39,393 bases of DNA from a virus: positions 1-39,393 of IMG/VR virus record IMGVR_UViG_3300032829_000025, one strand, 5' to 3'. The position numbers were made by a program, and so were the translations under genes. Below the pieces are notes generated by a model, which was not told the DNA's origin, made no database searches, and worked only from the letters and a program-made list of their open reading frames with translations. Below are positions 1-39,393 of the stretch, piece after piece. The first letter of the stretch is position 1, and every line of letters starts with the position of its first letter.

Positions 1-9
1 AACGCATGT

Positions 10-39
10 ATGTTACCACGGCGCGAGTCTCGTTGTCAA
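10..39 (-). promoter_or_regulatory. Leftward sigma70-type promoter
   Basis: Read leftward, a perfect -35 TTGACA (34-39) is followed after 18 bp by TAACAT (10-15), which matches TATAAT at four of six positions. The gene it would serve lies beyond the left edge of the window. The sequence around the -35 (GGTAAT, then CCCTTGACAAC, then AG) is nearly the same as the sequence upstream of the IS1595 transposase at 14675-14697. Confidence 0.45.
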
Positions 40-400
40 GGGATTACCCACCCGGAGGCCAGCTACAGACTTAAACTCAATCGCGTTAACCATTTACTTC
101 ATTCTCGCGCTAGTTCTCTTCTCTAATCGCCTGCTATTGCGATATTCTAACGGAGTGCGATCCTCTTTCTAATCGCCTTTCCAGTTCGCATCTATTCTCT
201 TGCCGATGTGTTGCCGATTTCCGGCCAGTTCTCTTTCGCTCGCGGCATCGCCTGGTAGCTTCTCGCCTGTCTGCTATCCTCTTATATGGCATTGCAGCGC
301 GATTGTAGGCACATCGGCGCGTATTTGGCAAGGCATCGGCGCGAGTGTTTATAGATTGAGCACTAGTACTCTCAATTTTGCCTTAGTACTCGTTTTTAAC

Positions 401-430
401 TTGACAACAGTACTCCACTAGGCGCATTGT
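401..430 (+). promoter_or_regulatory. Rightward promoter for the early block
   Basis: A perfect -35 TTGACA lies at 401-406. The best -10 is weak: CATTGT at 425-430 with an 18-bp spacer. Three AGTACTC copies flank or overlap the -35 (365-371, 385-391, 409-415), spaced 20 and 24 bp apart. Their core AGTACT is self-complementary, so they could be operator half-sites for a dimeric regulator that helps or blocks a promoter with a poor -10. It precedes the block 480-4444. Confidence 0.4.
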
Positions 431-436
431 CGCCTT

Positions 437-455
437 GTCAGACTGATTATCTGAC
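437..455 (+). promoter_or_regulatory. CTGATTA-loop leader hairpin 1
   Basis: GTCAGA (437-442) and TCTGAC (450-455) form a perfect 6-bp stem enclosing the 7-nt loop CTGATTA (443-449). The Shine-Dalgarno GGAGA and the ATG at 480 follow, with 24 nt between hairpin and start codon. A small hairpin AGGCG/CGCCT (420-424 with 431-435, loop CATTGT) sits just upstream. An alternative pairing of TGACAA (402-407) with TTGTCA (435-440) would compete with the CTGATTA hairpin. The same loop and placement recur before the genes at 852 and 1937, and nearly so at 2220. Confidence 0.6.
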
Positions 456-479
456 TAGACTCTCAGGAGAAAACAAACC

Positions 480-761
480 ATGAAACGTCAAACGATTCGC
501 CTTGCCGATGGATACAACGGGGATACCGTGCTTTTGTTCGCTGATCCTATCGAAGTAGAAGGGCATCTAGTCAAGTTGCAAGTTGCTGAACCGGGTCGCG
601 GCCATCTTTTCCGCTGGGCATCTAAAGAGGAATTGAAGAATGCGCGCCAAAAGGCAACACGGGAACGCGCTAACAAGATTCGCCGCGAACGAGATCAGGT
701 TATGCGCGATATGGGGTTGAAACGTGTTCGTGGCGCGTTGGGCGGAGTCTACTGGGAATAG
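480..761 (+). CDS. Hypothetical phage protein, 93 aa
   Basis: First gene of the rightward early block. The ATG follows a GGAGA ribosome site by about nine bases, and the start lies 24 nt after the CTGATTA hairpin. The N-terminal half is mixed beta-like (MKRQTIRLADG, then LVKLQVAEPG). Residues 50-80 form a strongly charged, probably helical Lys/Arg/Glu-rich stretch that could bind nucleic acid. I do not recognise the family. It is followed by a structured 90-nt leader before the next gene. Confidence 0.75.
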   Translation: MKRQTIRLADGYNGDTVLLFADPIEVEGHLVKLQVAEPGRGHLFRWASKEELKNARQKATRERANKIRRERDQVMRDMGLKRVRGALGGVYWE

Positions 762-762
762 A

Positions 763-835
763 TTGTCCTGCTAGTTTGCCGTGCTACGGTACGGCAAGCG
801 CGGTACAAACTAAACTCGGGTCTGATTAACCTGAG
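763..835 (+). promoter_or_regulatory. Structured leader 2 with CTGATTA hairpin
   Basis: This leader starts directly after the stop of the upstream gene and folds into three elements. The outer stem pairs 763-771 (TTGTCCTGC) with 800-808 (GCGGTACAA), with one C/T mismatch and one G-T wobble. Inside it, TTGCCGT (776-782) pairs with ACGGCAA (791-797). Downstream, CTCGGGT (815-821) pairs with ACCTGAG (829-835) around the loop CTGATTA (822-828), including a G-T wobble. The ATG at 852 follows after 16 nt containing GGAGAAAA. No U-tract follows, so it is not a simple terminator. The fold parallels leader 4. Confidence 0.6.
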
Positions 836-851
836 AAACGGAGAAAAGGCA

Positions 852-1166
852 ATGGAACAAAGAGAAACATGCGGTTATAAAGGGCATTACTGTATGCCCG
901 GAAGCGTACGCTTCATTTCTCGCTATCGTTTGGTAAATGATTACTGCGTAGGCGGGAAGAGGGTTTCAGTAAATGACAACGGCGAAGTGTCCGCGAATGC
1001 GACAAACGAAGATTTGCAAGCCATTCTCGCGTTTGAGTGTGCAAAGTATGAAGCATACGTCAAGGAACACAATCAAGGGCAATTTGCTGATCTCCCATTG
1101 CAACCATTCGATTGTGGGATAGTTAACACGCGCATTTGCGTGCTTGACTATGAGAGGGGGATATAA
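852..1166 (+). CDS. Hypothetical phage protein, 104 aa
   Basis: The gene starts 16 nt after the CTGATTA hairpin, with GGAGAAAAGGCA before the ATG. It ends directly before the ATG of the AAA+ ATPase (TAA then ATG with no gap), so the two are probably translationally coupled. The protein is soluble, with five cysteines, no membrane segment and no motif I recognise. The C-terminal region after residue 60 is rich in aromatic and acidic residues. Confidence 0.75.
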   Translation: MEQRETCGYKGHYCMPGSVRFISRYRLVNDYCVGGKRVSVNDNGEVSANATNEDLQAILAFECAKYEAYVKEHNQGQFADLPLQPFDCGIVNTRICVLDYERGI

Positions 1167-1832
1167 ATGTCTCTCTTTCCTACTCCACAAAGCACGCTAG
1201 ACTTTCCGCAACCTTTGAGCGAAAAATACCGGCCACGCGCCATTGCCGATTTTATCGGCTTGGAAAAGCAAAAAAAAATACTCTCAGGATTCGCCCGTGC
1301 TCCTAAAAATGGCGCATGGATATTCTATGGTCCCTCTGGCGTAGGCAAGTCTACAATGGCAATGGCACTCTGCGATGCTATCGGTGGAGAATTGCACCTA
1401 ATTCCCTCACAAAAAGCGAACATTCAAACGCTAGAGGATACGATTAGAATGTGCTGGTACGTTCCCAAAAATGGCACGTTCCACGTAGTTCTCTGCGATG
1501 AACTAGACCAATGCTCGAACGCTTTCCAGCTTGCGCTATTGAGCAAACTAGACTCCACGGATCGCGTGCCTAACACAATTTGGATCTTCACATCAAATTG
1601 GACCAATGAGGAACTGCAAGCCAAGTTAGAAAAGCGTTTCCTCTCTAGGTGTTGGATGCTCGAGTTTTCCAGCTACGGTATGCGTAGCGAAATAGCTGGC
1701 CTACTGGCCGATGTATGGCAAAAGGAAACCGGCAAACCTGGCGAATTGAACTGGGAGCGAATTGCAAAAGATTCTGGTACTAACGTGCGAGCAGCACTCT
1801 CCGCACTAGAACTAGAACTGTTAGCGAATTGA
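1167..1832 (+). CDS. Clamp-loader-like AAA+ ATPase (RFC small-subunit type)
   Basis: The 221-residue protein has the core of a clamp-loader ATPase, which opens a sliding clamp and places it on primed DNA. Residues 17-31 (LSEKYRPRAIADFIG) match the N-terminal RFC box. Walker A is GPSGVGKST (55-63), Walker B is VVLCDELD (107-114) and sensor 1 is TSN (142-144). The SRC arginine-finger motif typical of RFC and phage gp44 proteins lies at 160-162. A sensor-2-like GTNVRAAL follows near 204. The usual RFC or gp44 subunit is about 320 residues; this one stops after the lid and lacks the C-terminal collar that holds the pentamer together. No sliding clamp or polymerase gene is seen in this window. A RuvB-like role is less likely given the SRC motif. 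Confidence 0.85.
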   Translation: MSLFPTPQSTLDFPQPLSEKYRPRAIADFIGLEKQKKILSGFARAPKNGAWIFYGPSGVGKSTMAMALCDAIGGELHLIPSQKANIQTLEDTIRMCWYVPKNGTFHVVLCDELDQCSNAFQLALLSKLDSTDRVPNTIWIFTSNWTNEELQAKLEKRFLSRCWMLEFSSYGMRSEIAGLLADVWQKETGKPGELNWERIAKDSGTNVRAALSALELELLAN

Positions 1833-1855
1833 GCAAGTTTTTACGGTACTGGGTC

Positions 1856-1917
1856 TTGACACACGCTGGCCACTGGCGAATAGTGGCAAACACAGCGGGC
1901 GACCTGATTAGTCGCTC
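1856..1917 (+). promoter_or_regulatory. Leader 3: possible promoter and CTGATTA hairpin
   Basis: TTGACA (1856-1861) is followed after 17 bp by AATAGT (1879-1884), a four-of-six match to TATAAT, so a promoter may start here. The RNA or ssDNA can also fold: CGCTG (1864-1868) pairs with CAGCG (1893-1897), enclosing GCCACT (1869-1874) with AGTGGC (1882-1887). The last hairpin pairs 1897-1903 with 1911-1917 (seven pairs, one G-T wobble) around the loop CTGATTA (1904-1910). The ATG at 1937 follows after 19 nt that include AAAGGAGAA. The outer stem shares base 1897 with the loop hairpin, so the two may compete. Confidence 0.55.
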
Positions 1918-1936
1918 CGACAAAGGAGAAAAACGA

Positions 1937-2125
1937 ATGACAAACACTCTCACAGAATACAAAGCGTTAGTGGATGCAGCTCGCGTGATCGAGCAGATTA
2001 AAATAGCGATCTCCCGCGAAGATGGAGCAGGTTACATTTCGCCGGCGTGGTCTAAACTGCATCGCGTCCAAAAGCACATTACCGAGCAGGCAGCCCTTCT
2101 GCTGAATCCGGCAGAACCGAAGTGA
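1937..2125 (+). CDS. Small phage protein, 62 aa (paralogue of 3580-3768)
   Basis: The reading frame is open from 1829, but I chose the ATG at 1937. It has an AAAGGAGAA ribosome site, it lies after the leader hairpin, and its product aligns end to end with the 62-residue protein at 3580. The shared pattern is EY-AL, AA, an Ile-rich helix, EDG and SPAW-K. Both are predicted helical with no signal peptide or membrane segment. The function is unknown. The SPAW motif in the middle is the best family signature. Confidence 0.7.
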   Translation: MTNTLTEYKALVDAARVIEQIKIAISREDGAGYISPAWSKLHRVQKHITEQAALLLNPAEPK

Positions 2126-2204
2126 CTGTCCTGCCCGGTTCGCCTTGAGTGAGAGGCAAGGCGAGCGCAGTACAGACACCACGCGCCAGCGTGATTAACT
2201 GGCG
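2126..2204 (+). promoter_or_regulatory. Structured leader 4 with GTGATTA hairpin
   Basis: The outer stem pairs 2126-2134 (CTGTCCTGC) with 2167-2175 (GCAGTACAG), leaving one C/T mismatch. The inner 8-bp stem pairs TCGCCTTG (2140-2147) with CAAGGCGA (2157-2164). The last hairpin pairs CGCCAG (2184-2189) with CTGGCG (2199-2204) around a loop containing GTGATTA (2191-2197). The ATG at 2220 follows after 15 nt with AAGGAGAA. Relative to leader 2, the outer stem changes T-A to C-G and G-T to A-T while keeping pairing, and the C/T mismatch is kept at the same place. Confidence 0.6.
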
Positions 2205-2219
2205 AGAAGGAGAACAGTT

Positions 2220-2813
2220 ATGACGCTTAAAAGGCAGTTGAAAGCTCTTGGCGCTTGCACGGATGCGGTGGAGTGGGTCGCTGACCGCGATCTGCTCACC
2301 GCTTGGGCAGAGTGCGAACGCGGCGATTGGATGCTTTGGCTTGTAGGTCGAATGCAGGGAAAAGAAGGCTGGCCAAATCGCCAAGCGATTGTGTTGGTCG
2401 CGTGCGATTGCGCCGAACTCGTTTTGCCGATCTACGAGAAACGTTATCCCAACGATGACCGCGTGCGAAACTGTATCGCCGTAACACGTCAATGGGCCTC
2501 TGGCGAGGCGTCCATTGACGACGTAAGAACCGCTAGGAATGCTGCTGCTTATGCTGCTGCTACTGCTGCTGCTGCTGATGATGCTGCTGCTTATGCTGCT
2601 GCTTATGCTGCTTATGCTGCTGCTGCTGCTGCTGCTGATGATGCTTATGCTGCTTATGCTGCTTATGCTGCTGCTGCTGCTGCTGCTGATGATGCTTATG
2701 CTGCTTATGCTGCTTATGCTGCTGCTGCTGCTCGGCTCCGCACTTGGAAACAATGCGCGGATATTTGCCGTAATCGCCTGACCATCCCTGATTCGGTCAA
2801 GGTGGGCGCATGA
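2220..2813 (+). CDS. Imm-5-like Ala-rich protein, copy 1
   Basis: The 197-residue protein begins with a compact domain (about residues 1-100) of the kind found in putative Imm-5-like immunity proteins. It has the conserved sequence CERGDWMLWLVGRM at about 37-50, then a helical VLVACDCAELVLP. Residues 108-175 are a low-complexity run of Ala with Tyr and Asp-Asp, coded almost purely by GCT, TAT and GAT. A short Trp/Cys-containing tail ends the protein. Family members often have Ala-rich helical arrays here, but without such codon monotony. The name does not prove immunity activity; its role in a phage is unknown. It lies directly after leader 4. Confidence 0.7.
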   Translation: MTLKRQLKALGACTDAVEWVADRDLLTAWAECERGDWMLWLVGRMQGKEGWPNRQAIVLVACDCAELVLPIYEKRYPNDDRVRNCIAVTRQWASGEASIDDVRTARNAAAYAAATAAAADDAAAYAAAYAAYAAAAAAADDAYAAYAAYAAAAAAADDAYAAYAAYAAAAARLRTWKQCADICRNRLTIPDSVKVGA

Positions 2814-2881
2814 GGCAAGTTGCTTGGCGTGTGGGAGTCGTTCTGCTGGCTGGTAAAAAGGAGAACAGTTATGACGCTTAA
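2810..2881 (+). pseudogene. Truncated copy of the small membrane protein gene
   Basis: ATGA overlaps the stop of the first Imm-5-like gene, as in the intact copy at 3461. The first 14 codons (MRQVAWRVGVVLLA) are identical to that copy, but the frame then runs across the duplication junction into the ribosome site and start of copy 2. It stops after 23 codons with a hydrophilic tail (GKKENSYDA), and the membrane segment is cut in half. Confidence 0.6.
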
Positions 2882-3464
2882 AAGGCAGTTGAAAGCTCTT
2901 GGCGCTTGCACGGATGCGGTGGAGTGGGTCGCTGACCGCGATCTGCTCACCGCTTGGGCAGAGTGCGAACGCGGCGATTGGATGCTTTGGCTTGTAGGTC
3001 GAATGCAGGGAAAAGAAGGCTGGCCAAATCGCCAAGCGATTGTGTTGGTCGCGTGCGATTGCGCCGAACTCGTTTTGCCGATCTACGAGAAACGTTATCC
3101 CAACGATGACCGCGTGCGAAACTGTATCGCCGTAACACGTCAATGGGCCTCTGGCGAGGCGTCCATTGACGACGTAAGAACCGCTAGGAATGCTGCTGCT
3201 TATGCTGCTGCTACTGCTGCTGCTGCTGATGATGCTGCTGCTTATGCTGCTGCTTATGCTGCTTATGCTGCTGCTGCTGCTGCTGCTGATGATGCTTATG
3301 CTGCTTATGCTGCTTATGCTGCTGCTGCTGCTGCTGCTGATGATGCTTATGCTGCTTATGCTGCTTATGCTGCTGCTGCTGCTCGGCTCCGCACTTGGAA
3401 ACAATGCGCGGATATTTGCCGTAATCGCCTGACCATCCCTGATTCGGTCAAGGTGGGCGCATGA
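2871..3464 (+). CDS. Imm-5-like Ala-rich protein, copy 2
   Basis: This is identical in sequence to the protein at 2220-2813. The frame is open further upstream, but the start at 2871 is fixed by identity with copy 1 and by the AAGGAGAACAGTT ribosome site. Unlike copy 1 it has no CTGATTA-type leader hairpin, because the duplication began just downstream of it. If the hairpin is regulatory, the two copies should be controlled differently. The stop overlaps the ATG of the next gene. Confidence 0.7.
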   Translation: MTLKRQLKALGACTDAVEWVADRDLLTAWAECERGDWMLWLVGRMQGKEGWPNRQAIVLVACDCAELVLPIYEKRYPNDDRVRNCIAVTRQWASGEASIDDVRTARNAAAYAAATAAAADDAAAYAAAYAAYAAAAAAADDAYAAYAAYAAAAAAADDAYAAYAAYAAAAARLRTWKQCADICRNRLTIPDSVKVGA

Positions 3465-3577
3465 GGCAAGTTGCTTGGCGTGTGGGAGTCGTTCTGCTGG
3501 CTGTCGTCCTTGCTACGTTAGCAGGGGCGGCAGCTGGCGCGGTGATCGCTGAATCTTTGAAAGCATGGAGGGATTGA
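3461..3577 (+). CDS. Small membrane protein, 38 aa
   Basis: ATGA overlaps the stop of the upstream gene, indicating translational coupling. The 38 residues hold one hydrophobic segment, about residues 8-28 (GVVLLAVVLATLAGAAAGAV), after a short N-terminus with two arginines, and end in a charged tail (ESLKAWRD). It looks like a single-pass inner-membrane peptide. It is too short to assign; a holin-like or accessory role is possible but unsupported. A truncated copy exists at 2810. Confidence 0.6.
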   Translation: MRQVAWRVGVVLLAVVLATLAGAAAGAVIAESLKAWRD

Positions 3578-3579
3578 AC

Positions 3580-3768
3580 ATGAAGCAAGAGTATGATGCA
3601 CTGATGACCGCTGCAAAGGATCTCGCACGAATCGAGCGGATACTGTCCGATGAAGATGGGCCGCTTGTTTCTTCCCCAGCGTGGCGCAAGGTGAACCACG
3701 CAAAAGCCTATGTTGTAACGATGGCTGAAAACCTGCTCAAGGAGGAAATTGCGCCGTGCCAAGCCTAA
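3580..3768 (+). CDS. Small phage protein, 62 aa (paralogue of 1937-2125)
   Basis: The ATG at 3580 follows GGAGGG by seven bases. An in-frame ATG at 3565 exists, but the paralogue at 1937 supports the later start. The alignment spans the whole length: EY-AL, AA, RIE-I, EDG, SPAW-K and A--LL. The two paralogues flank the duplicated region, so the locus has expanded by duplication at least twice, once long ago and once recently. The function is unknown. Confidence 0.7.
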   Translation: MKQEYDALMTAAKDLARIERILSDEDGPLVSSPAWRKVNHAKAYVVTMAENLLKEEIAPCQA

Positions 3769-4010
3769 ACCATCCATCACGAATTGACGTTGACGAAGCT
3801 CTCCGCGCACTTGAACGCGAAGAGGAAGCACGCGCCGAAGCGGTTCGCCAGTTCTACTTGCGCCACCGCACAGCGCGGGAACTGTGGCAGGAGTTCCCAC
3901 TGTGGAAGCGTTTGCTATTCTCTGCTATCGGCGGGTTTGTTTTCGCCGGCATCTTCGTTGCCCTGATTCTGTGGGGTATTGACGCAGCACTCAAAAGTTT
4001 GGGACAGTAA
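3756..4010 (+). CDS. Membrane protein with one C-terminal transmembrane helix, 84 aa
   Basis: A GTG start with an AAGGAGGAA ribosome site 12-14 bases upstream overlaps the end of the previous gene. Residues 10-45 form a charged helix rich in Glu and Arg (ALEREEEARAEA). One transmembrane segment follows at about 52-74 (LLFSAIGGFVFAGIFVALIL), then a short tail. The layout, a cytosolic charged helix then one membrane helix, fits many phage membrane proteins. I cannot assign a role. Confidence 0.7.
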   Translation: MPSLNHPSRIDVDEALRALEREEEARAEAVRQFYLRHRTARELWQEFPLWKRLLFSAIGGFVFAGIFVALILWGIDAALKSLGQ

Positions 4011-4033
4011 GCACAAAAAAAGGAGAAACGGAA

Positions 4034-4198
4034 ATGGCGACCATGACAGGCAAGAAAGCACGTAGGACTGGCGGCAATCGTTACGCATGCAAAAAAACGA
4101 ACCGCCACACTAATCCCGTGAAAGCTGCTCGCTGGCAAGCTCAGCAGCGGGATACGAAGAAATTCTCAGACAAAACAAAAGAAAAATACGGACTCTAA
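4034..4198 (+). CDS. Small basic protein, 54 aa
   Basis: The ATG follows AAAGGAGAAACGG, a good ribosome site. The product has 54 residues and is very rich in Lys, Arg and Thr, with a single Cys and no hydrophobic segment (MATMTGKKARRTGGNR at the start, EKYGL at the end). It resembles small nucleic-acid-binding or ribosome-associated phage peptides, but no family is recognised. Confidence 0.55.
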   Translation: MATMTGKKARRTGGNRYACKKTNRHTNPVKAARWQAQQRDTKKFSDKTKEKYGL

Positions 4199-4239
4199 CG
4201 ATCTTCGCGGCCTCTCTGCTACCCGTCCTGGGTGGCTCT

Positions 4240-4296
4240 CCGGGCTGCAAGCCTTCGGCCTAATCAACCGTCACGCGCCAGTAGGCAAGCTGGCGC
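4240..4296 (+). promoter_or_regulatory. Leader 5: hairpin with the leader-4 stem but a different loop
   Basis: GCGCCAG (4275-4281) pairs perfectly with CTGGCGC (4290-4296) around the loop TAGGCAAG. The stem matches leader 4 (CGCCAG/CTGGCG), but the loop lacks TGATTA. An upstream hairpin CCG-GGCT/AGCC-CGG lies at about 4240-4259. It precedes the small ORF at 4325, with GGGAGG between. The stretch 4199-4324 holds no other gene. Confidence 0.35.
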
Positions 4297-4324
4297 ACTT
4301 TTCGCGTTTGGGAGGCTCTAGGAC

Positions 4325-4444
4325 ATGCTCAGTTTACTTTTGGCTCTGGTAGGTCTTGCGAACGCCTTCCGCGTGCTGTGGCTGGAAGCCAAGCGGCCTA
4401 GCGATGATGCTGTGTGGGATGCCTGCTTGCTACGCTCAAAATAG
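4325..4444 (+). CDS. Small hydrophobic protein, 39 aa
   Basis: The ATG lies nine bases after GGGAGG. The first 20 residues are hydrophobic (MLSLLLALVGLANAFRVLWL), and the rest is polar. It could be a membrane peptide or a short exported one; VGLANA resembles a signal peptidase site. Its last nine bases overlap the 3' end of the convergent gene at 4436, so the two transcription units meet here with no visible terminator. It is supported only by ribosome site and composition. Confidence 0.45.
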   Translation: MLSLLLALVGLANAFRVLWLEAKRPSDDAVWDACLLRSK

Positions 4445-4651
4445 CTTAGGGTTTTGTTTCTCGCGTGTTTGCCGTTCTTCTTCTTCGATGCCCTTCTTGA
4501 TCCGTTCGAATTCGTTTTGCAGTTCTAGCCGCTTGATACACTCCAAGCATGGGCCGCGCCTTCCGCCGTCTACGCGGTGCTGCGTGTCCTTGCCGCAGCG
4601 TTTGCAGTAGACGGTACACTCTAGCGTGTTCCGAGTGTAGTGCTCGGGCAT
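4436..4651 (-). CDS. Zinc-ribbon protein, 71 aa
   Basis: Last gene of the leftward operon. CKRCG (about residues 16-20) and CLEC (about 35-38) form two CxxC knuckles of a small zinc ribbon, with an HRVDGG stretch between them. The C-terminal half is a charged helix rich in Glu, Arg and Gln. Such proteins are common in phage early operons and may bind nucleic acid or RNA polymerase, but the target is unknown. The gap to the upstream gene is three bases. Confidence 0.7.
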   Translation of the reverse strand: MPEHYTRNTLECTVYCKRCGKDTQHRVDGGRRGPCLECIKRLELQNEFERIKKGIEEEERQTREKQNPKLF

Positions 4652-4654
4652 GGC

Positions 4655-5002
4655 TCACCTTGCGTCGAAACTCCGCTCATCCCCGCAGATGCTCCACAAC
4701 GCTTCCACGTTAAAGTGTGGGCCGAACACTGCGCGGTCTTTATAGCGGAACCATTCCCGCGTCCGATGCTCCATGCTTGTCATCGCGCATTTGAAAACCG
4801 TCTGCACGATCTCGCTGTGCGTCATTTGTGGAGATAGAAACCATCGACGCGTGGATTGCAACTCTGGCTTGCCTGTCACCGTGTCTTTTTCCAAGTAGTG
4901 AGCCTGCAAGTAAATCTCGCCGCGCCCGTCCACGAATACCTCGAACTTGTATTCGCCAAACTTGCACAGAGCGACAACGTCCTGCATCTGTTCTGCGTTC
5001 AT
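4655..5002 (-). CDS. Conserved phage hypothetical protein, 115 aa
   Basis: The ATG overlaps the upstream stop as ATGA. The sequence has the feel of a widely spread phage family of unknown function. Its marks are RRWFLSPQMTHSEIVQTVFKC, followed by MEHRTREWF and FGPHFNVEALW. It has no membrane segment. Conserved His, Arg and Glu residues in the C-terminal half could form a metal or nucleic-acid site, which is only a guess. Confidence 0.7.
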   Translation of the reverse strand: MNAEQMQDVVALCKFGEYKFEVFVDGRGEIYLQAHYLEKDTVTGKPELQSTRRWFLSPQMTHSEIVQTVFKCAMTSMEHRTREWFRYKDRAVFGPHFNVEALWSICGDERSFDAR

Positions 5003-5312: not shown

Positions 5313-5657
5313 CTAGGCTTGCACGTTTCTGACGGGGATAATTTTGTTCCGATTAGCTTCGTGAATTTCCCGGCAGAGATACAGCGAACAAGCTGGGCAA
5401 TCGCAGCGTCGTCCGCCTTTGGACTTTGAATTGTGGTGCCACTCGCCCTTTGGTGCGCCTTCGCCGTTCCATGAGATAGCGTGCGGTTCGACGCAGCCTT
5501 GACACGTCGCCGGCTTGAGATCAACAACGCTACTCGGGTCCGACTCATCTAGCCAGTCAGCCTCTCCGCCTGCGTTACGGTACACCTGCAAGCGCATCCG
5601 CGTCTTGTCCAGAATGCCTTCCACGAAAATGTACTCGTGCCCATCCCTACGATTCAC
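5313..5657 (-). CDS. HNH-like zinc-binding protein
   Basis: The C-terminal half carries CQGC, then HAISW, WHHNSKSKGGRRC, CDCPAC and LCREIHE, a Cys/His pattern like that of small phage HNH or recombination-associated zinc proteins. The frame is open up to 5738. I chose GTG at 5657, which overlaps the ERF gene end by 11 bases and begins at the apparent domain edge (VNRRDGHEYIF). The ATGs at 5702 and 5738 would give longer Lys-rich N-termini and larger overlaps. Nuclease activity is not certain. The position next to ERF suggests a recombination or replication accessory role. Confidence 0.6.
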   Translation of the reverse strand: MNRRDGHEYIFVEGILDKTRMRLQVYRNAGGEADWLDESDPSSVVDLKPATCQGCVEPHAISWNGEGAPKGEWHHNSKSKGGRRCDCPACSLYLCREIHEANRNKIIPVRNVQA

Positions 5658-6126
5658 CGTTCGCGTTTCTTTCTTCTTTTTTCGCTCTGGCTTCGGGAAC
5701 ATCAGTGGCACGTTGCACCTCTTCCGGCTCATCGCCAAACTTTAGATTGAAGATCAGCACCATCGCGTACTTGCGCGAGCCAGTCAGTGAGCGGTAGATA
5801 CCTTTTCCCGCTTCATCCGAGCCAGCGCCAGGCACGCGGTATACTTTCGTCTCTCCGCTATCCACGTCGGTCAACGTCCACTCGACCAGCGTTTCTGTCA
5901 CAGCGCCAAACTTGCTCACATGCGTAATCGGCTCTTTGGGTACGCTGCCCTGCAAAATGAGCTTGTACCGCTTTAGCAGTGGGTTCACCACGTCCAACAC
6001 GTCCTCGATCTTGACGTAGGAATATAGCGGCTTGTTTGGGTCGCTGGACTCGCCTACGCCCTTGCGCTCAATCGTGGAGCACTTTTGCGTGATGGCGAAT
6101 ATCTTCTGGCTAAGCGTGAGTTTCAT
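5647..6126 (-). CDS. ERF-family ssDNA-annealing protein
   Basis: ERF proteins are ring-forming single-strand annealing recombinases used by phages for homologous recombination. The ERF core is visible as YSYVKIEDVLDVVNPLL (residues 35-51). It continues in GSDEAGKGIYRSLTGSRKYA (102-121) followed by FNLKFGDEPE, which matches the usual 'A-T-ARRYAL...GI-DDD' segment. The acidic and basic C-terminal tail is typical. The start at 6126 is set by an ATGA overlap with the upstream stop; the longer frame to 6243 is not needed. At 159 residues it is a short member. No exonuclease partner was recognised beside it. Confidence 0.8.
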   Translation of the reverse strand: MKLTLSQKIFAITQKCSTIERKGVGESSDPNKPLYSYVKIEDVLDVVNPLLKRYKLILQGSVPKEPITHVSKFGAVTETLVEWTLTDVDSGETKVYRVPGAGSDEAGKGIYRSLTGSRKYAMVLIFNLKFGDEPEEVQRATDVPEARAKKEERNANGES

Positions 6127-6428
6127 TTCTGGCGGTCCTCTGCCTCTCCTATGCTCATCGTTTCCTGAAACTCTTCCATTTCCGTTCGCGTGAGCAGGCG
6201 ACCGTGGTACTTGTGATCTTGCGGAACTTCGCTGCCAGAACATTCGATGATGGCGATTTCCTTGATAGGCACGGGCGGCAGGTCTTTAATAACCCAGCAC
6301 CGCAAATCCGGTCTGAGAAATTCGTTGCGGCCACTCTGTAGATACATTGTCCCAAGATGTCCGCTAGGCTCACCGACTACGCTCAAGCAGAGCCACTTGG
6401 GTTTAGGGATTACGACGAGCTTTGGCAT
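6123..6428 (-). CDS. Hypothetical phage protein, 101 aa
   Basis: The ATG at 6428 lies six bases after GGAGAA; an ATG at 6434 would sit almost on top of the ribosome site. It overlaps the end of the upstream gene by 19 bases and ends in an ATGA overlap with ERF. The N-terminus is beta-rich (MPKLVVIPKPKWLCLSVVG) and the C-terminus is an acidic helix. No family is recognised. The operon position beside ERF suggests a replication or recombination role. Confidence 0.65.
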   Translation of the reverse strand: MPKLVVIPKPKWLCLSVVGEPSGHLGTMYLQSGRNEFLRPDLRCWVIKDLPPVPIKEIAIIECSGSEVPQDHKYHGRLLTRTEMEEFQETMSIGEAEDRQK

Positions 6429-11728: not shown

Positions 11729-12397
11729 ATGAAGCCTTACTACCAACACGCTGGCATCACGATCTACCACGGGGATTGCAGGGAAGTGCTGCCCAGCCTC
11801 GAGGTTGCCGATTTGCTGCTTACCGACCCGCCCTATGGGATTGACCGCGCCAATGGAATGGGCAGTCAGGGGTATGACGGTTTTGGAAATGGCATCAAGC
11901 GTCAGCCTCGAGTATACGAAGGCGAATGGGACAAAGTACGGCCCGATGCGTCGACGCTGGATCTTTGCAGGAATCGCGGCGTGAGCGTGATTGTTTGGGG
12001 CGGAAATTATTTCTCCGATGCGCTGCCGCAGAAAAACAAGTGGCTGGTATGGGATAAGTGCCAAACGATGCCGTCATTTAGTGATGCAGAACTGGCATGG
12101 ACCAATCTGGGCGGGACGTCGGTAAAGATGTTTCGCTATAACGGCTCTGGCCTTATGGCAGAGGAGCAAGAACGCTGGCACCCCACACAGAAGCCTGTCG
12201 CGCTGATGAAATGGTGTATTCAGCAGATGCGGGGCGATGACATTTGCCTCGAGGTCCTCGACCCCTTCATGGGCAGCGGCACAACGCTGCGAGCGGCTAA
12301 AGATTTAGGGCGCCAGGCCATCGGCATAGAAATCGAAGAGAAGTATTGCGAGATCGCAGCCAAGCGGCTCAGCCAAGAGGTTTTGGAGTTCAAGTGA
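11729..12397 (+). CDS. Type II-like DNA methyltransferase (N6-adenine or N4-cytosine)
   Basis: The 222-residue protein has motif IV TDPPYG (32-37), the HPTQKP box (151-156) and motif I DPFMGSGTT (178-186). This order (IV before I) is that of beta-class amino-methyltransferases. DPPY favours adenine-N6. It has a short target-recognition region and no restriction endonuclease partner nearby. Phages use such orphan enzymes to protect DNA from host restriction or to mark packaging or replication sites. The ATG lacks a clear Shine-Dalgarno. The TGA overlaps the next start, tying it to the DUF2778 gene. Confidence 0.88.
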   Translation: MKPYYQHAGITIYHGDCREVLPSLEVADLLLTDPPYGIDRANGMGSQGYDGFGNGIKRQPRVYEGEWDKVRPDASTLDLCRNRGVSVIVWGGNYFSDALPQKNKWLVWDKCQTMPSFSDAELAWTNLGGTSVKMFRYNGSGLMAEEQERWHPTQKPVALMKWCIQQMRGDDICLEVLDPFMGSGTTLRAAKDLGRQAIGIEIEEKYCEIAAKRLSQEVLEFK

Positions 12398-12834
12398 TGT
12401 TCACCTACATCCAACTCACCGGAGAACTTCTGGACCCCACGGGTAAGCTACTGGCGCAAGGCTATTCAGGTCTGGGTATCGCTAAGAACGACCCTGCCGC
12501 GCAAATGCTCCCCAATCAAGGACCCATCCCGTGCGGCAAATACCTCATCCTCCAGCCTGAGAACTCGCCTACGCATGGCCCCTACGCAATACCGCTGTCG
12601 CCCTACGCATCAAACGAGATGTTTGGCAGGTCGGGCTTTATGATGCACGGAGACTCGCGGGAGCACCCCGGAGCGGCCTCAGAGGGTTGCATCATCATGC
12701 CGCGTGCTGTGCGGGAAGCAGTGTGGCAAAGTGGCGATCGAGAACTGCAAGTGTTGAGCGGCGTGGATGTGCCTACGACGACTTCGGACCTGGTAAGTAT
12801 CCCCTCTGGACAAGTACAGCGAGGGGGTGAATAA
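12397..12834 (+). CDS. DUF2778 / Tlde1-like L,D-transpeptidase-fold protein, 145 aa
   Basis: The ATG overlaps the TGA of the methyltransferase. The family pattern is clear: GYSGLGIAKNDP (22-33), GPIPCGKYLI (42-51), GRSGFMMHGDS (77-87) and ASEGCIIMP (94-102). His84 and Cys98 are the catalytic pair. DUF2778 proteins such as the type VI effector Tlde1 cut or exchange the peptide stem of peptidoglycan. In a phage this suggests an envelope-damaging or lysis function, but no signal peptide is present, so export would need help. It is not next to a recognised holin. Confidence 0.75.
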   Translation: MFTYIQLTGELLDPTGKLLAQGYSGLGIAKNDPAAQMLPNQGPIPCGKYLILQPENSPTHGPYAIPLSPYASNEMFGRSGFMMHGDSREHPGAASEGCIIMPRAVREAVWQSGDRELQVLSGVDVPTTTSDLVSIPSGQVQRGGE

Positions 12835-13667
12835 TGCCTTCTAGGGAGGACCTCTTTGTGTATCTGGCCTATATTGACGATTCCGAGACCCAGCGAAGGG
12901 GTAGTAACTTCGTGGTTCTGGCTGGCGTTCTTATTTCTGACTTGATTCTTTCTAAATTGGAAACTGTGATTGGCGCATCTATTCAATACTTATTGCCACC
13001 TGAAAAATGGGAGGATTTTGTTGAATTTAAAGCGTCAGATTTGTTCGGCTGTCATGGAGCATTTGAAGGAGTCGAGGAATTTAGGAGGCATGGAGTTATC
13101 AAAATATTATTGAACCAGCTTAGCGCTTTGAAGATTCCGGTTTTCTATGGTGCCGTGAGTAAGAAAGAGTGGGACGCCAAATATTTTTCGCACGGTTCGG
13201 CGAGCAAGGAAGACATTTGTTTTAGAAATTGTTTGCAGGGGGTCAAGGCATGGGTAAATACGCCTAAATTATTAAGCGGCTTTGAGGTTAATTCTTACAC
13301 CGAACGATCTACGCTGGTTGTCATGGATGATTGCGAGGATAAGGGAAAAAGAAATCAGTCCAGAAAATCATTTCGTGAATTTCGCGTCCAACTTCGCCCA
13401 CATAAGGTGGATTTGCAGAATCCTGACTTTTCCAATGTCGCATGGCATCTACATGATGATATGTACTTCGGAAGTTCCAGGGATTCCATCGGCTTACAAT
13501 TAGCTGACCTATGCGCTTACTTCATTTCTCGGCATTTACAGAAATGGGATGATTCGGAACATTTTTACAAGCAGATAGAACCACATATTCTGTTCTCAAA
13601 GATTGAGCCAGAGGGGGTAGAATCAAGCAATGACGTCTCAAACCAGGAAGGCAAAACCACGCAATGA
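12834..13667 (+). CDS. DUF3800 protein, 277 aa
   Basis: The start overlaps the stop of the DUF2778 gene. The DUF3800 pattern is present: an N-terminal strand ending in Asp-Asp (YLAYIDDSE), a central MDDCEDKG acidic site and the C-terminal SIGLQLADLCAYFISRH. The family has an RNase H-like fold with conserved Asp residues, occurs in defence-related and mobile loci, and is untested in most cases. The gene is visibly richer in A and T than its neighbours (especially 12930-13440), which suggests recent transfer. It ends where the transposase gene converges on it. Confidence 0.75.
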   Translation: MPSREDLFVYLAYIDDSETQRRGSNFVVLAGVLISDLILSKLETVIGASIQYLLPPEKWEDFVEFKASDLFGCHGAFEGVEEFRRHGVIKILLNQLSALKIPVFYGAVSKKEWDAKYFSHGSASKEDICFRNCLQGVKAWVNTPKLLSGFEVNSYTERSTLVVMDDCEDKGKRNQSRKSFREFRVQLRPHKVDLQNPDFSNVAWHLHDDMYFGSSRDSIGLQLADLCAYFISRHLQKWDDSEHFYKQIEPHILFSKIEPEGVESSNDVSNQEGKTTQ

Positions 13668-25891: not shown

Positions 25892-25990
25892 TCAGTCGTC
25901 CTCTTCTTCCATCTCGGGAATGCTATCGCTCTCCGCGCCTTCGTCTTGCTGGAGGATAAGTTCGGAGTCGTCAATCGCGTCCGGCATCAT
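25892..25990 (-). CDS. Acidic 32-residue peptide after the ATP-grasp gene
   Basis: ATGATG overlaps the TGA of the ATP-grasp gene, so the two are coupled. The peptide has 32 residues, of which about half are Asp or Glu (starts MMPDAIDDSELILQQDEG, ends in EEEDD). It has no Cys, no membrane segment and only two Ser. It could be a substrate, a cofactor binder or just a short DNA mimic. The DNA from 25848 to 25891 holds nothing I can name. Confidence 0.45.
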   Translation of the reverse strand: MMPDAIDDSELILQQDEGAESDSIPEMEEEDD

Positions 25991-27270
25991 GTTCCGTAGC
26001 TTGTCCTGAGCCAACCACCGTCTCTGAGTTCAAGATACCTTTTCACGAAATTGGGTTCAAGATCGTTTCGGTACATCATGTCTGGAATTTTTAGCGCCTT
26101 CACCATGTCGGTTGCAGCCGAGAATGAATTGTGTAGCGTTGGTCCCACAGCGAGCACGGACCCGATCCAACCGTCCACGCCCGCCGTTTCAAGTCGGTCC
26201 TCATTATTTTCTTCCAAGCGAACGTCTCTGGCGAAGAAATGCTCTAACTTATCAGGAGATAATCCTTCGATTGGAACGCCCTCTCGGTAAAGTTTTTTAG
26301 GCAGTTCGGATAGCGGGTAAGGAGGGATGCCGATTCGGATGGAGGAGCAGAACGCTTCTTTCGGCGTGAGCGTTGGCATGGGTGCGTTTTCAGCGATGCG
26401 CCCCATGAATTCCCCAAAGTCTATCGGTAGAAGGCGCGTCAGATTGCATGTTCCTTCGTAGCCAAAACGCGGCGTCCATTCAAGCCCAAACACATCTTCG
26501 TCGGTGACGATTGAATTCAAGTCAATCATCCCGACGTAGCCAAGTTCCCTCAGCGGCTCAAACGCCTTTTTTAATCCACGCTGGAATACGGTTGGCTCAC
26601 CAAGCCCCGCCATCCACAACACATTCCCGGCGCATCCGGTAGCAGGGCCAATATTGCCTGCCATGAGCTTCTTCGCTTCCAGTGTCATGTTGACAGCGTA
26701 GAAGCCGCTCTCGTTCATCCACATCTCTACGGAAACTTCGGTCCCCTTCACAACTTCTTGCAGTACAAATTCCTTCTGCGGATTCTTCCGGTAGAGCACG
26801 TCGATGTACTGGAGCATGTCTTCCGCCGACGTTGATACGTAGGTGCATGATGTATCGGCTCCATCCCCGCAAGGCTTAAAAACTACAGGCCGTTTTCTTT
26901 GCTTGATATATCTGATGCCGTCAGCAACGTCCGTGAAGTGCTCCCACGGAGGCACACGAATGCCGCAGCGTTCCATAAATTCAAGGCCCGCTACGCGATC
27001 ATGTTCAAGAGTGTCTGCTAGTTTGCTGCCACCGATGGTGGGGGTAATCAGGCGGGATTCGTCTGCATCTTCACCAAGACCGCTGGTGTCGTAAACAATG
27101 AGATCGTAGTCGGCTGCGTTTCCGGGAGACGGCTTTGCATCAATTAGGCCGGAGAGGGCTTTGGCGTAATGGTCGTCCTCAACGACAAGCATAACGTCAT
27201 GGCCCGCTTGCTTACAGAGCCAAGCGAACCATCCGCCCTCATTCCAGCGAGAAATGAAGCAGATGCGCAC
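25987..27270 (-). CDS. ATP-grasp enzyme, GARS (PurD)-like, 427 aa
   Basis: ATP-grasp enzymes join a carboxylate to an amine or thiol through an acyl-phosphate. The layout fits glycinamide ribonucleotide synthetase. There is an N-terminal Rossmann-like domain (MRICFISRWNEGGWFAWLC to YDLIVYDTSGLG), then DRVAGLEFMERCGIRVPPW, the ATP-binding lysine strand RPVVFKPCGDG, and the acidic strand EFVLQEVVKGTEVSVEMW. GMIDLNSIVTDEDVFGLEWTPRFGYE supplies the metal site. Homologues occur in phage genomes without a known substrate. Its place between structural genes, and next to a tiny acidic peptide, is odd. It could act in purine supply, in base modification or on a peptide. Confidence 0.75.
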   Translation of the reverse strand: MRICFISRWNEGGWFAWLCKQAGHDVMLVVEDDHYAKALSGLIDAKPSPGNAADYDLIVYDTSGLGEDADESRLITPTIGGSKLADTLEHDRVAGLEFMERCGIRVPPWEHFTDVADGIRYIKQRKRPVVFKPCGDGADTSCTYVSTSAEDMLQYIDVLYRKNPQKEFVLQEVVKGTEVSVEMWMNESGFYAVNMTLEAKKLMAGNIGPATGCAGNVLWMAGLGEPTVFQRGLKKAFEPLRELGYVGMIDLNSIVTDEDVFGLEWTPRFGYEGTCNLTRLLPIDFGEFMGRIAENAPMPTLTPKEAFCSSIRIGIPPYPLSELPKKLYREGVPIEGLSPDKLEHFFARDVRLEENNEDRLETAGVDGWIGSVLAVGPTLHNSFSAATDMVKALKIPDMMYRNDLEPNFVKRYLELRDGGWLRTSYGT

Positions 27271-38755: not shown

Positions 38756-39393
38756 TCAACTTCCGAAAGACCACCAGGTCCCACGCCAGCTCGTCGCGCC
38801 CACGCTGAAACGTTGCGTCGATTTGAAGAGCAAAACTTCTGTCTTGAAGTCGTCGTCGGTTGCCGCCATCAACGGCTCTCTATCGTAAAGTTTGAGCATG
38901 TGCCCTTCCTTGTCGGTGAGCAACCCCCACCCGAACGGGGTGGTCAGGTAGTTCAACTCAAGGCCCGTCAGCGACTCGCCCTGGAGCCAGTTCAATTCGT
39001 TGTTCGCAGATCCCGGCACGCCGCCCGAGCCAAGCAGTTCGCGCACGTTGCGGCGGTTCTGCTGCGCGTGGACCAGATACTTCGGTTTCACGTGGATGGG
39101 GATGCCGCGGTCATCCGGTTGCAGCGCGATCATCGTGATGGCTTGCTGCAAGGCAGTATTGGTCAGGTCCGAGTCGGGGGTGGGCCGGTTCGGATAGGTG
39201 CCAGCCGAATTGATGATCGTGGAAATGTTCGGGGCCAGCGTGGTTGCCTGCGACCCGCCCATCAAGGGCTGCGCGGTGTTGAACAGCGTCGCACCGTTGG
39301 TGGTGGTGATGGAGGTCCCGCCGAGGTTGAACAGCGAGGCCGCAACCGCTTCCTTCGCGTACAGCGCGGAGCGTGCGTGAGACTTCGGCACGT
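38756..39393 (-). CDS. Major capsid protein, C-terminal part (partial)
   Basis: The frame runs off the right edge, and the apparent GTG at 39391 is probably internal, so the N-terminal part is missing. The visible 211 residues show a capsid pattern: HARSALYAKEAVAASLFNLG, TNTALQQAITMIALQPDDRG, then IPIHVKPKYLVHAQQNRRNV, the turn LYDREPLMAATDDDFKTEVL and the C-terminal FSVGATSWRGTWWSFGS. This fits the HK97-fold capsid proteins of the Mu gpT-like or environmental podovirus type. The order capsid, HNH, small structural genes is consistent with the late operon being read leftward from here. Confidence 0.8.
   Translation of the reverse strand, partial: VPKSHARSALYAKEAVAASLFNLGGTSITTTNGATLFNTAQPLMGGSQATTLAPNISTIINSAGTYPNRPTPDSDLTNTALQQAITMIALQPDDRGIPIHVKPKYLVHAQQNRRNVRELLGSGGVPGSANNELNWLQGESLTGLELNYLTTPFGWGLLTDKEGHMLKLYDREPLMAATDDDFKTEVLLFKSTQRFSVGATSWRGTWWSFGS

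Follow-up and report, generated by a model that had tools for sequence, protein, structure and literature searches.

We report a family of small leader hairpins in the early gene cluster of a 39,393-base virus record (IMG/VR IMGVR_UViG_3300032829_000025; "the window" hereafter means this whole stretch of DNA). Each of four early genes is preceded by a hairpin whose loop is held constant on a stem of nearly free sequence. As the best, if still tentative, explanation, we propose that these hairpins are mRNA operators through which one trans-acting factor, probably encoded by the phage, acts on translation initiation across an early regulon. The feature holds up as real, and it is an orphan: operator hairpins in leaders are already known, and what is new is this version of loop and stem, not the class. 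A literature search, in which subscription papers were mostly out of reach, turned up no description of a leader hairpin family with a constant loop.

All four hairpins lie on the plus strand. Hairpin 1 (GTCAGA-CTGATTA-TCTGAC, 437..455) pairs 437-442 with 450-455 around the loop 443-449, before the ATG at 480; hairpin 2 (CTCGGGT-CTGATTA-ACCTGAG, 815..835) pairs 815-821 with 829-835 around 822-828, before the ATG at 852; and hairpin 3 (GGGCGAC-CTGATTA-GTCGCTC, 1897..1917) pairs 1897-1903 with 1911-1917 around 1904-1910, before the ATG at 1937. These are the three stems that the original prediction, made from the letters alone, had described as enclosing exactly CTGATTA, and its coordinates were borne out, as was its statement that the hairpins end 15-24 nucleotides (nt) before an ATG with a Shine-Dalgarno (SD) sequence in between: GGAG stands in this interval in all four leaders, with gaps of 24, 16, 19 and 15 nt. 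The last of these belongs to the weak hairpin 4 (CGCCAG-C-GTGATTA-A-CTGGCG, 2184..2204), upstream of the ATG at 2220. Here GTGATTA is present as had been claimed, but the stem (2184-2189/2199-2204) encloses 9 nt in all, C-GTGATTA-A, whose outermost C and A do not pair (C.A), and a competing fold is favoured. TGATTA is common to all four loops, and CTGATTA to three. Copies 2 and 3 contain one wobble each, which is G.U on the mRNA strand and A.C on the other strand. The first three copies are predicted to form within their leaders, with pair probabilities of 0.83-1.0 in copy 1 and 0.92-0.99 in copy 2; in copy 3 the inner five pairs reach 0.72-0.99 and the outer two 0.02-0.27.

The heptamer is not rare by count: CTGATTA occurs at six sites on the two strands of the window (shuffle mean 3.13), a number reached by 5 of 100 shuffles, and its rarity is thus in its placement. 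Only the three leader sites fall within a stem of at least 6 pairs, the remaining three having at most 2. Among 7-nt loops on plus-strand stems of at least 6 pairs, CTGATTA, with three copies, is tied with ACCGCTT, two of whose three copies sit in the gene duplication 2220/2871. In 2000 dinucleotide shuffles of the first 2220 nt, a repeated loop was absent in 1999 and a single pair was seen in one, with no threefold loop in any (0/2000); shuffles of the whole window (n = 100) likewise gave at most a loop pair and no threefold loop (0/100). Over the four copies, all seven stem pairs are altered on both sides and 92.9% of the cells are paired, which upholds the earlier observation that the stems differ almost completely around a kept loop. 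Of 500 shuffles, none scored as high in cells paired or in covariation score, one did so in doubly changed pairs and 17 in further pair types, and the covariation signal was lost when the partner strand was slid. The observation is therefore real, and chance is a poor explanation for it. The further claim that no such hairpin loop exists elsewhere in the window holds for stems of at least 6 pairs, with the qualification that a minus-strand TTGATTA at 38758 is enclosed by 5 pairs with wobbles.

Under the operator interpretation, each early mRNA leader would fold a stem of 6-7 base pairs (bp), free in sequence, that presents the fixed loop (C/G)UGAUUA. This loop would be read by a single factor in trans, most likely an RNA-binding protein that the phage encodes. 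Standing about 15-45 nt 5' of the AUG, the hairpin would lie inside the reach of the initiating 30S subunit, so that initiation at all four early genes would be blocked or tuned jointly once the factor is bound. That the RNA is the active form, that a protein is its reader and that this protein represses are parts of the proposal which we infer. The original prediction had likewise suggested a site read by one factor; the constant loop, the covarying stem, the fixed place and the predicted formation of copies 1-3 support it, and the poor fourth copy, the want of a named binding protein and of relatives with the same loop do not.

Among known systems, lambda nut combines boxA with a neighbouring boxB hairpin whose loop has 5 nt, compared to 7 nt in the window. 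The operator of T4 gp43, in which a hairpin with an important loop stands about 40 nt 5' of the start codon, is closer: as far as the available text of the source goes, the T4/RB69 operators resemble the window in having a hairpin 5' of the start codon, kept loop bases and a tie to the ribosome binding site (PMC3014915). However, gp43 regulates its own mRNA, whereas the window hairpins precede several genes and combine a 7-nt loop, free stems and a putative reader. RegA of T4 offers a parallel to the proposed regulon, being a single factor whose targets are the initiation regions in a large set of early mRNAs (PMC3014915, in the portion available). Its sites are, in the same portion of that source, without clear conserved sequence or structure (PMC3014915), in contrast to the window sites, which are clear in both.

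In the data examined, the CTGATTA loop is private to this virus. A second IMG/VR record, G001 (50,097 bases), is identical to the window across 20,000 and 9,265 bases and 99.3% identical across 10,325; it is the same virus, and its four hairpins are thus no independent evidence. Among 27 loci with a clamp-loader gene, CTGATTA appears as a 7-nt loop on at least 5 pairs only in the locus of this virus (L266) and in L291, considered below; L270 and L283 have 5-6 pairs around TGATTA in other registers. Homologues of the open reading frames (ORFs) at 480, 852 and 1937 were not found in the searched sets (fewer sets for 852 and 1937), ORF 480 matching the same virus only, and relatives of gene 2220 are without the hairpin. 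Searches with two DNA patterns revealed no second genome with a CTGATTA leader family among the matches listed. Across the 238 pattern loci scanned for hairpins, other TGATTA hairpins had different loops, lacked an SD or carried a GGAG imposed by the pattern. L016 has a 7-pair stem around AGTGATTAC without an SD. One sequence, AAAAGTT-CTGATTA-AACTTTT before GGAGAAAAACGATG, an SD, was seen as a single copy on three contigs (L033:445, L050:5372 and L141:677); given how many stretches the pattern selected, a single stem of this kind is close to chance expectation. The check proposed with the original prediction, further copies of the same loop in relatives, accordingly came back empty among head-protein and clamp-loader relatives.

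The hairpin design itself is probably common to a small number of related lineages that use other loops. Its recurrence around the clamp-loader gene of three other records (G002, L270 and G003) speaks for the operator. A leader-hairpin scan of 23 genomes or loci, including the window and some fragments, found a repeated loop of at least 5 bases on unlike stems in two, the window and G002. The latter shares structural genes with the window and has a clamp loader 65% identical to that of the window; it carries CTCCC-TTCCAG-GGGAG before a DUF932 gene, 2.3 kb 5' of the clamp loader, and TCTAGA-TTCCAG-TCTAGA before a 192-aa ORF, 1 kb 5' of it, the two leaders having the short flanks CTA and ATGGCGCACA in common. 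In L270, two hairpins flank the clamp loader, one per side, on unlike stems: A-TCCC-T on TCTCTCAA/TTGAGAGAG and A-ACCC-T on GACCGTA/TACGGTC, each with a GGAAAGG-like SD directly 3'. G003 has one A-ACCC-T leader hairpin with a GGAAAGG-like SD directly behind it, and a longer upstream stem is also present in L270a and G003. The ACCC-plus-SD pattern was found in 39 stretches of viral contigs, with a 7-bp stem in two (L270 and G003) and at most 3 pairs in 37. No such leader-hairpin family was detected in the other clamp-loader lineages, among them L268, G004, L273 and more distant ones. Leaders of ArdC-type genes in two other lineages contain hairpins with different loops; the loop is thus not fixed across lineages, a difference that we infer to reflect a reader and loop that change together. 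Pairing of the G002, L270 and G003 loops (TTCC or CCCTT) with the SD (GGAA/AAGG) was considered and rejected, as the SD is too close behind the stem.

A reverse-complement version of the loop occurs in acidobacterial elements. L291, an acidobacterial genome contig whose clamp loader is 61% identical, has a hairpin after a small ribbon-helix-helix gene and before an ArdC-type gene (Pfam ArdcN), with the coding-strand loop TAATCAG, the exact reverse complement of CTGATTA. The surrounding small element (L291:4852-7250) consists of the ribbon-helix-helix gene, the TAATCAG hairpin, the ArdC-type gene, the clamp loader and a resolvase-like gene. Two more such hairpins lie at a second locus of the same genome, G005 (L333:8215-8277), after a ribbon-helix-helix gene and 27 nt 5' of an ATG, and one is found in G149 (L338:1270-1303) directly 5' of a serine recombinase gene. 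In 26 clamp-loader loci (256,505 bases), eight strand-hairpins combine at least 12 pairs with a 7-nt loop, one of them being that of L291, where about 0.001 would be expected, the threshold of 12 pairs having been chosen afterwards; at 6 or more pairs there are 1477 hairpins, with about 0.18 expected and one seen. Counting G.U, these hairpins pair furthest on the strand that reads CTGATTA, the one opposite the genes, but this is the strand that the search favoured. In G005, 42 of 176 CTGATTA sites were read, and R1, a search model built partly from the window hairpins, gave no further good match across the whole genome. A general acidobacterial element was rejected: with R1, 30 of the 299 class genomes reached E ≤ 0.5 and 3 of the 41 family genomes E ≤ 0.3, no excess over chance. 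An apparent enrichment of TGTAATCAGCA (193/299 genomes) was likewise set aside, 7 of the 30 loci read resembling tRNA genes by eye. The link with L291 may reflect a DNA-level element common to both, a complementary partner or chance. A bolder and improbable extension would be a private loop code, in which lineages with the clamp-loader module keep leader hairpins in the same positions, each with its own loop and co-evolved reader. This would shield the early regulon against related phages and mobile elements, as an RNA counterpart of immunity groups; the acidobacterial loop would then represent one element addressing the mRNAs of another by loop-loop pairing.

Several results weigh against the operator interpretation. 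Its cognate reader was not found, and ORFs 480, 852 and 1937 match no family; the basic C-terminal helix of ORF 480 comes from a low-confidence model (mean predicted local distance difference test score, pLDDT, 61.4), with which a PDB fold search returned no match at E ≤ 0.001. The clamp-loader gene is itself without a family hairpin. Within its 43-nt leader, hairpin 4, which folds in isolation (-8.0), reaches -9.3 compared to -12.5 kcal/mol for the competing fold and is not predicted to form because that fold is 3.2 kcal/mol better (pair probability about 0.01). Relatives by clamp loader, ORF 480, gene 2220 or head protein yielded no CTGATTA-type leader family beyond this virus itself; in 38 further records with related head proteins, 10 of them at least 44 kb long and the shorter rest possibly lacking the early region, R1 gave no match at E ≤ 0.5 (best E = 0.91), though it did match G001. 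Finally, a simple chance model yields the G002 loop pair in about 0.8% of trials (159/20000), looser counting produces chance repeats of 5-6 nt loops (GAAGCA, CCTACA, CACGA, CAGCG), and the stability of the G002 leaders is unremarkable (z-scores -1.35 and 0.00); since such pairs can arise by chance, that of G002 is moderate evidence.

The leaders contain further predicted structure, all on the plus strand. A small hairpin (420..435) lies directly 5' of hairpin 1, and an upstream stem, stem I, is folded in leader 2 (763..808), in leader 3 (1864..1897) and in leader 4 (2126..2175). Stem I of leaders 2 and 4 is homologous and has a mismatch near its base in both, the two leaders being homologous over about 95 nt (59 of 101 columns identical), whereas that of leader 3 is unlike them in sequence. 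Leaders 2, 3 and 4 are more stable than their shuffles (z -4.54, -3.54 and -3.21), and leader 1 is not unusually stable (z -0.96). A TTGACA at 401..406 (+) is a possible -35 element of leader 1, with a weak -10 and outside the list of the promoter scan. Among the hairpin leaders, the scan lists a promoter-like site for leader 3 alone, TTGACA-17-AATAGT at 1856..1884 (+; 10/12), which would start transcription a few bases 5' of the hairpin; overall, positions 1-5000 hold five promoter-like sites versus 3.3 in shuffles, no excess. All three window copies of AGTACTC (365-371, 385-391 and 409-415) fall within 51 bases around the TTGACA of leader 1 and are possibly a repressor operator. The untranslated left end has CTAATCGCC twice (123-131 and 169-177), the TAATC of which could pair with GATTA of the loop. 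An Rfam search of positions 1-5000 (E up to 5) gave nine weak matches, all under the gathering score, and ARAGORN found no tRNA genes in the window. A hammerhead core was set aside, as the loop differs from the hammerhead CUGANGA and the GAAA partner is absent, and by eye the loop has no match to its own SD.

The left-end early cluster comprises, on the plus strand, the first early gene, an ORF of 93 aa (480..761) with the basic C-terminal helix; an ORF of 104 aa (852..1166); the clamp-loader-like ATPase of 221 aa (1167..1832); an ORF of 62 aa (1937..2125); and an Imm5-like ORF of 197 aa (2220..2813). The region is mosaic, the clamp loader alone of its genes being common to structural relatives. 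A tandem duplication of about 651 bp (2212-3464), where GCT-type repeats are abundant, repeats the Imm5-like gene at 2871, the second copy having an SD and no hairpin leader.

Other explanations have to be set beside the operator. The main rival, which we consider unlikely, is that the leaders are cis-acting antiterminators like the put RNAs of phage HK022, whose tandem stem-loops bind directly to RNA polymerase, enabling read-through of terminators. In leaders 2-4, as in L270a and G003, a longer imperfect stem directly 5' of the constant-loop hairpin fits this idea, and the put RNAs, of about 70 nt with two stem-loops located downstream of early promoters and needing no dedicated protein, open early transcripts in a comparable way (PMC9378689, as far as its available text goes). 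However, put occurs in two copies per phage with no tie to start codons; the window packs four elements into 1.8 kb and joins each to an SD and an ATG, a layout that resembles translational control, and the two stems of a leader lie anywhere from 1 to about 8 nt apart. Somewhat harder to credit is a role as 5'-end or SD-spacer hairpins, which stabilize the mRNA or keep the SD open and owe their common loop to recent copying of leaders. The hairpins do abut the SD in several lineages, the TTGACA elements before leaders 1 and 3 would put those hairpins near +1, and the homology of leaders 2 and 4 would fit copying; yet the stems have diverged almost everywhere around six unchanged loop bases, and neutral copies would lose the loop first. 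That same homology, the mosaic early region and the flanks CTA and ATGGCGCACA common to the G002 leaders could also point to mobile regulatory cassettes which shuffle early genes by recombination, an improbable reading on balance. Arbiol reportedly described such cassettes, the PeSLs, in T4-type phages in 2010; like the window leaders, they are said to be stem-loops that precede early genes where the genome is plastic, but a fixed loop on a free stem is not known as a PeSL feature. Recombination, moreover, needs like sequence, and the stems are unlike; nor would shuffling account for the fixed loop.

We find it quite improbable that a complementary RNA with the loop UAAUCAG pairs with the hairpins in trans by ColE1-type kissing. 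The coding-strand TAATCAG loops of L291, of the second locus in its genome and of one other genome would suit such a partner; however, the window has no hairpin with this loop, the acidobacterial hairpins are themselves gene leaders, and their orientation may reflect chance or a DNA-level element. RNase processing sites, which the position of the hairpins between genes of the early cluster would permit, are more doubtful again: stems of 6-7 bp are short for RNase III, common nucleases ask for no fixed 7-nt loop, and the placement follows ATGs instead of intergenic gaps generally. Least probable of all is that the hairpins act as single-stranded or extruded DNA, in the manner of N4-type promoters, an alternative raised by the original prediction. 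As DNA, these strands also fold (-2.9 to -5.7 kcal/mol), and the reverse-complement loop elsewhere would suit a DNA element; nevertheless, the N4 promoter hairpin has a loop of 3 nt instead of 7, and the wobbles fit the mRNA strand. Further, no RNA polymerase gene was recognised in about 50 proteins scanned of the 50-kb record, in which not all small ORFs were covered, and this weakens the promoter-hairpin idea, which we therefore disfavour.

Beyond the early cluster, the late genes are tailed-phage-like, with SU10-type portal and adaptor, a terminase and a capsid protein. The terminase large subunit of G001 (L006:2659-5400, +; 913 aa) has an internal LAGLIDADG domain, which is perhaps an intein. 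Amid the late genes, a 427-aa protein (25990-27270, -) matches the GARS (PurD) ATP-grasp domain (Pfam E 1e-10) and has relatives in many structural relatives of the virus. The window also codes for an ERF-type recombination protein (5647-6243), a Tlde1-domain protein (12346-12831, +) with 69% identity over 119 aa to a protein of L019, and a DUF3800 protein (12834-13667).

If the operator interpretation is true, the hairpins would define a compact phage regulon under post-transcriptional control, in uncultured phages with few annotated genes. The family was detected from sequence by covariation among copies within one genome, not between species. Its 7-nt loop would serve as a defined bait for fishing out an RNA-binding regulator, and hairpins of fixed loop and free stem would be handy as orthogonal RNA tags. 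The family would also make it possible to examine whether RNA operator specificities are kept separate among related phages.

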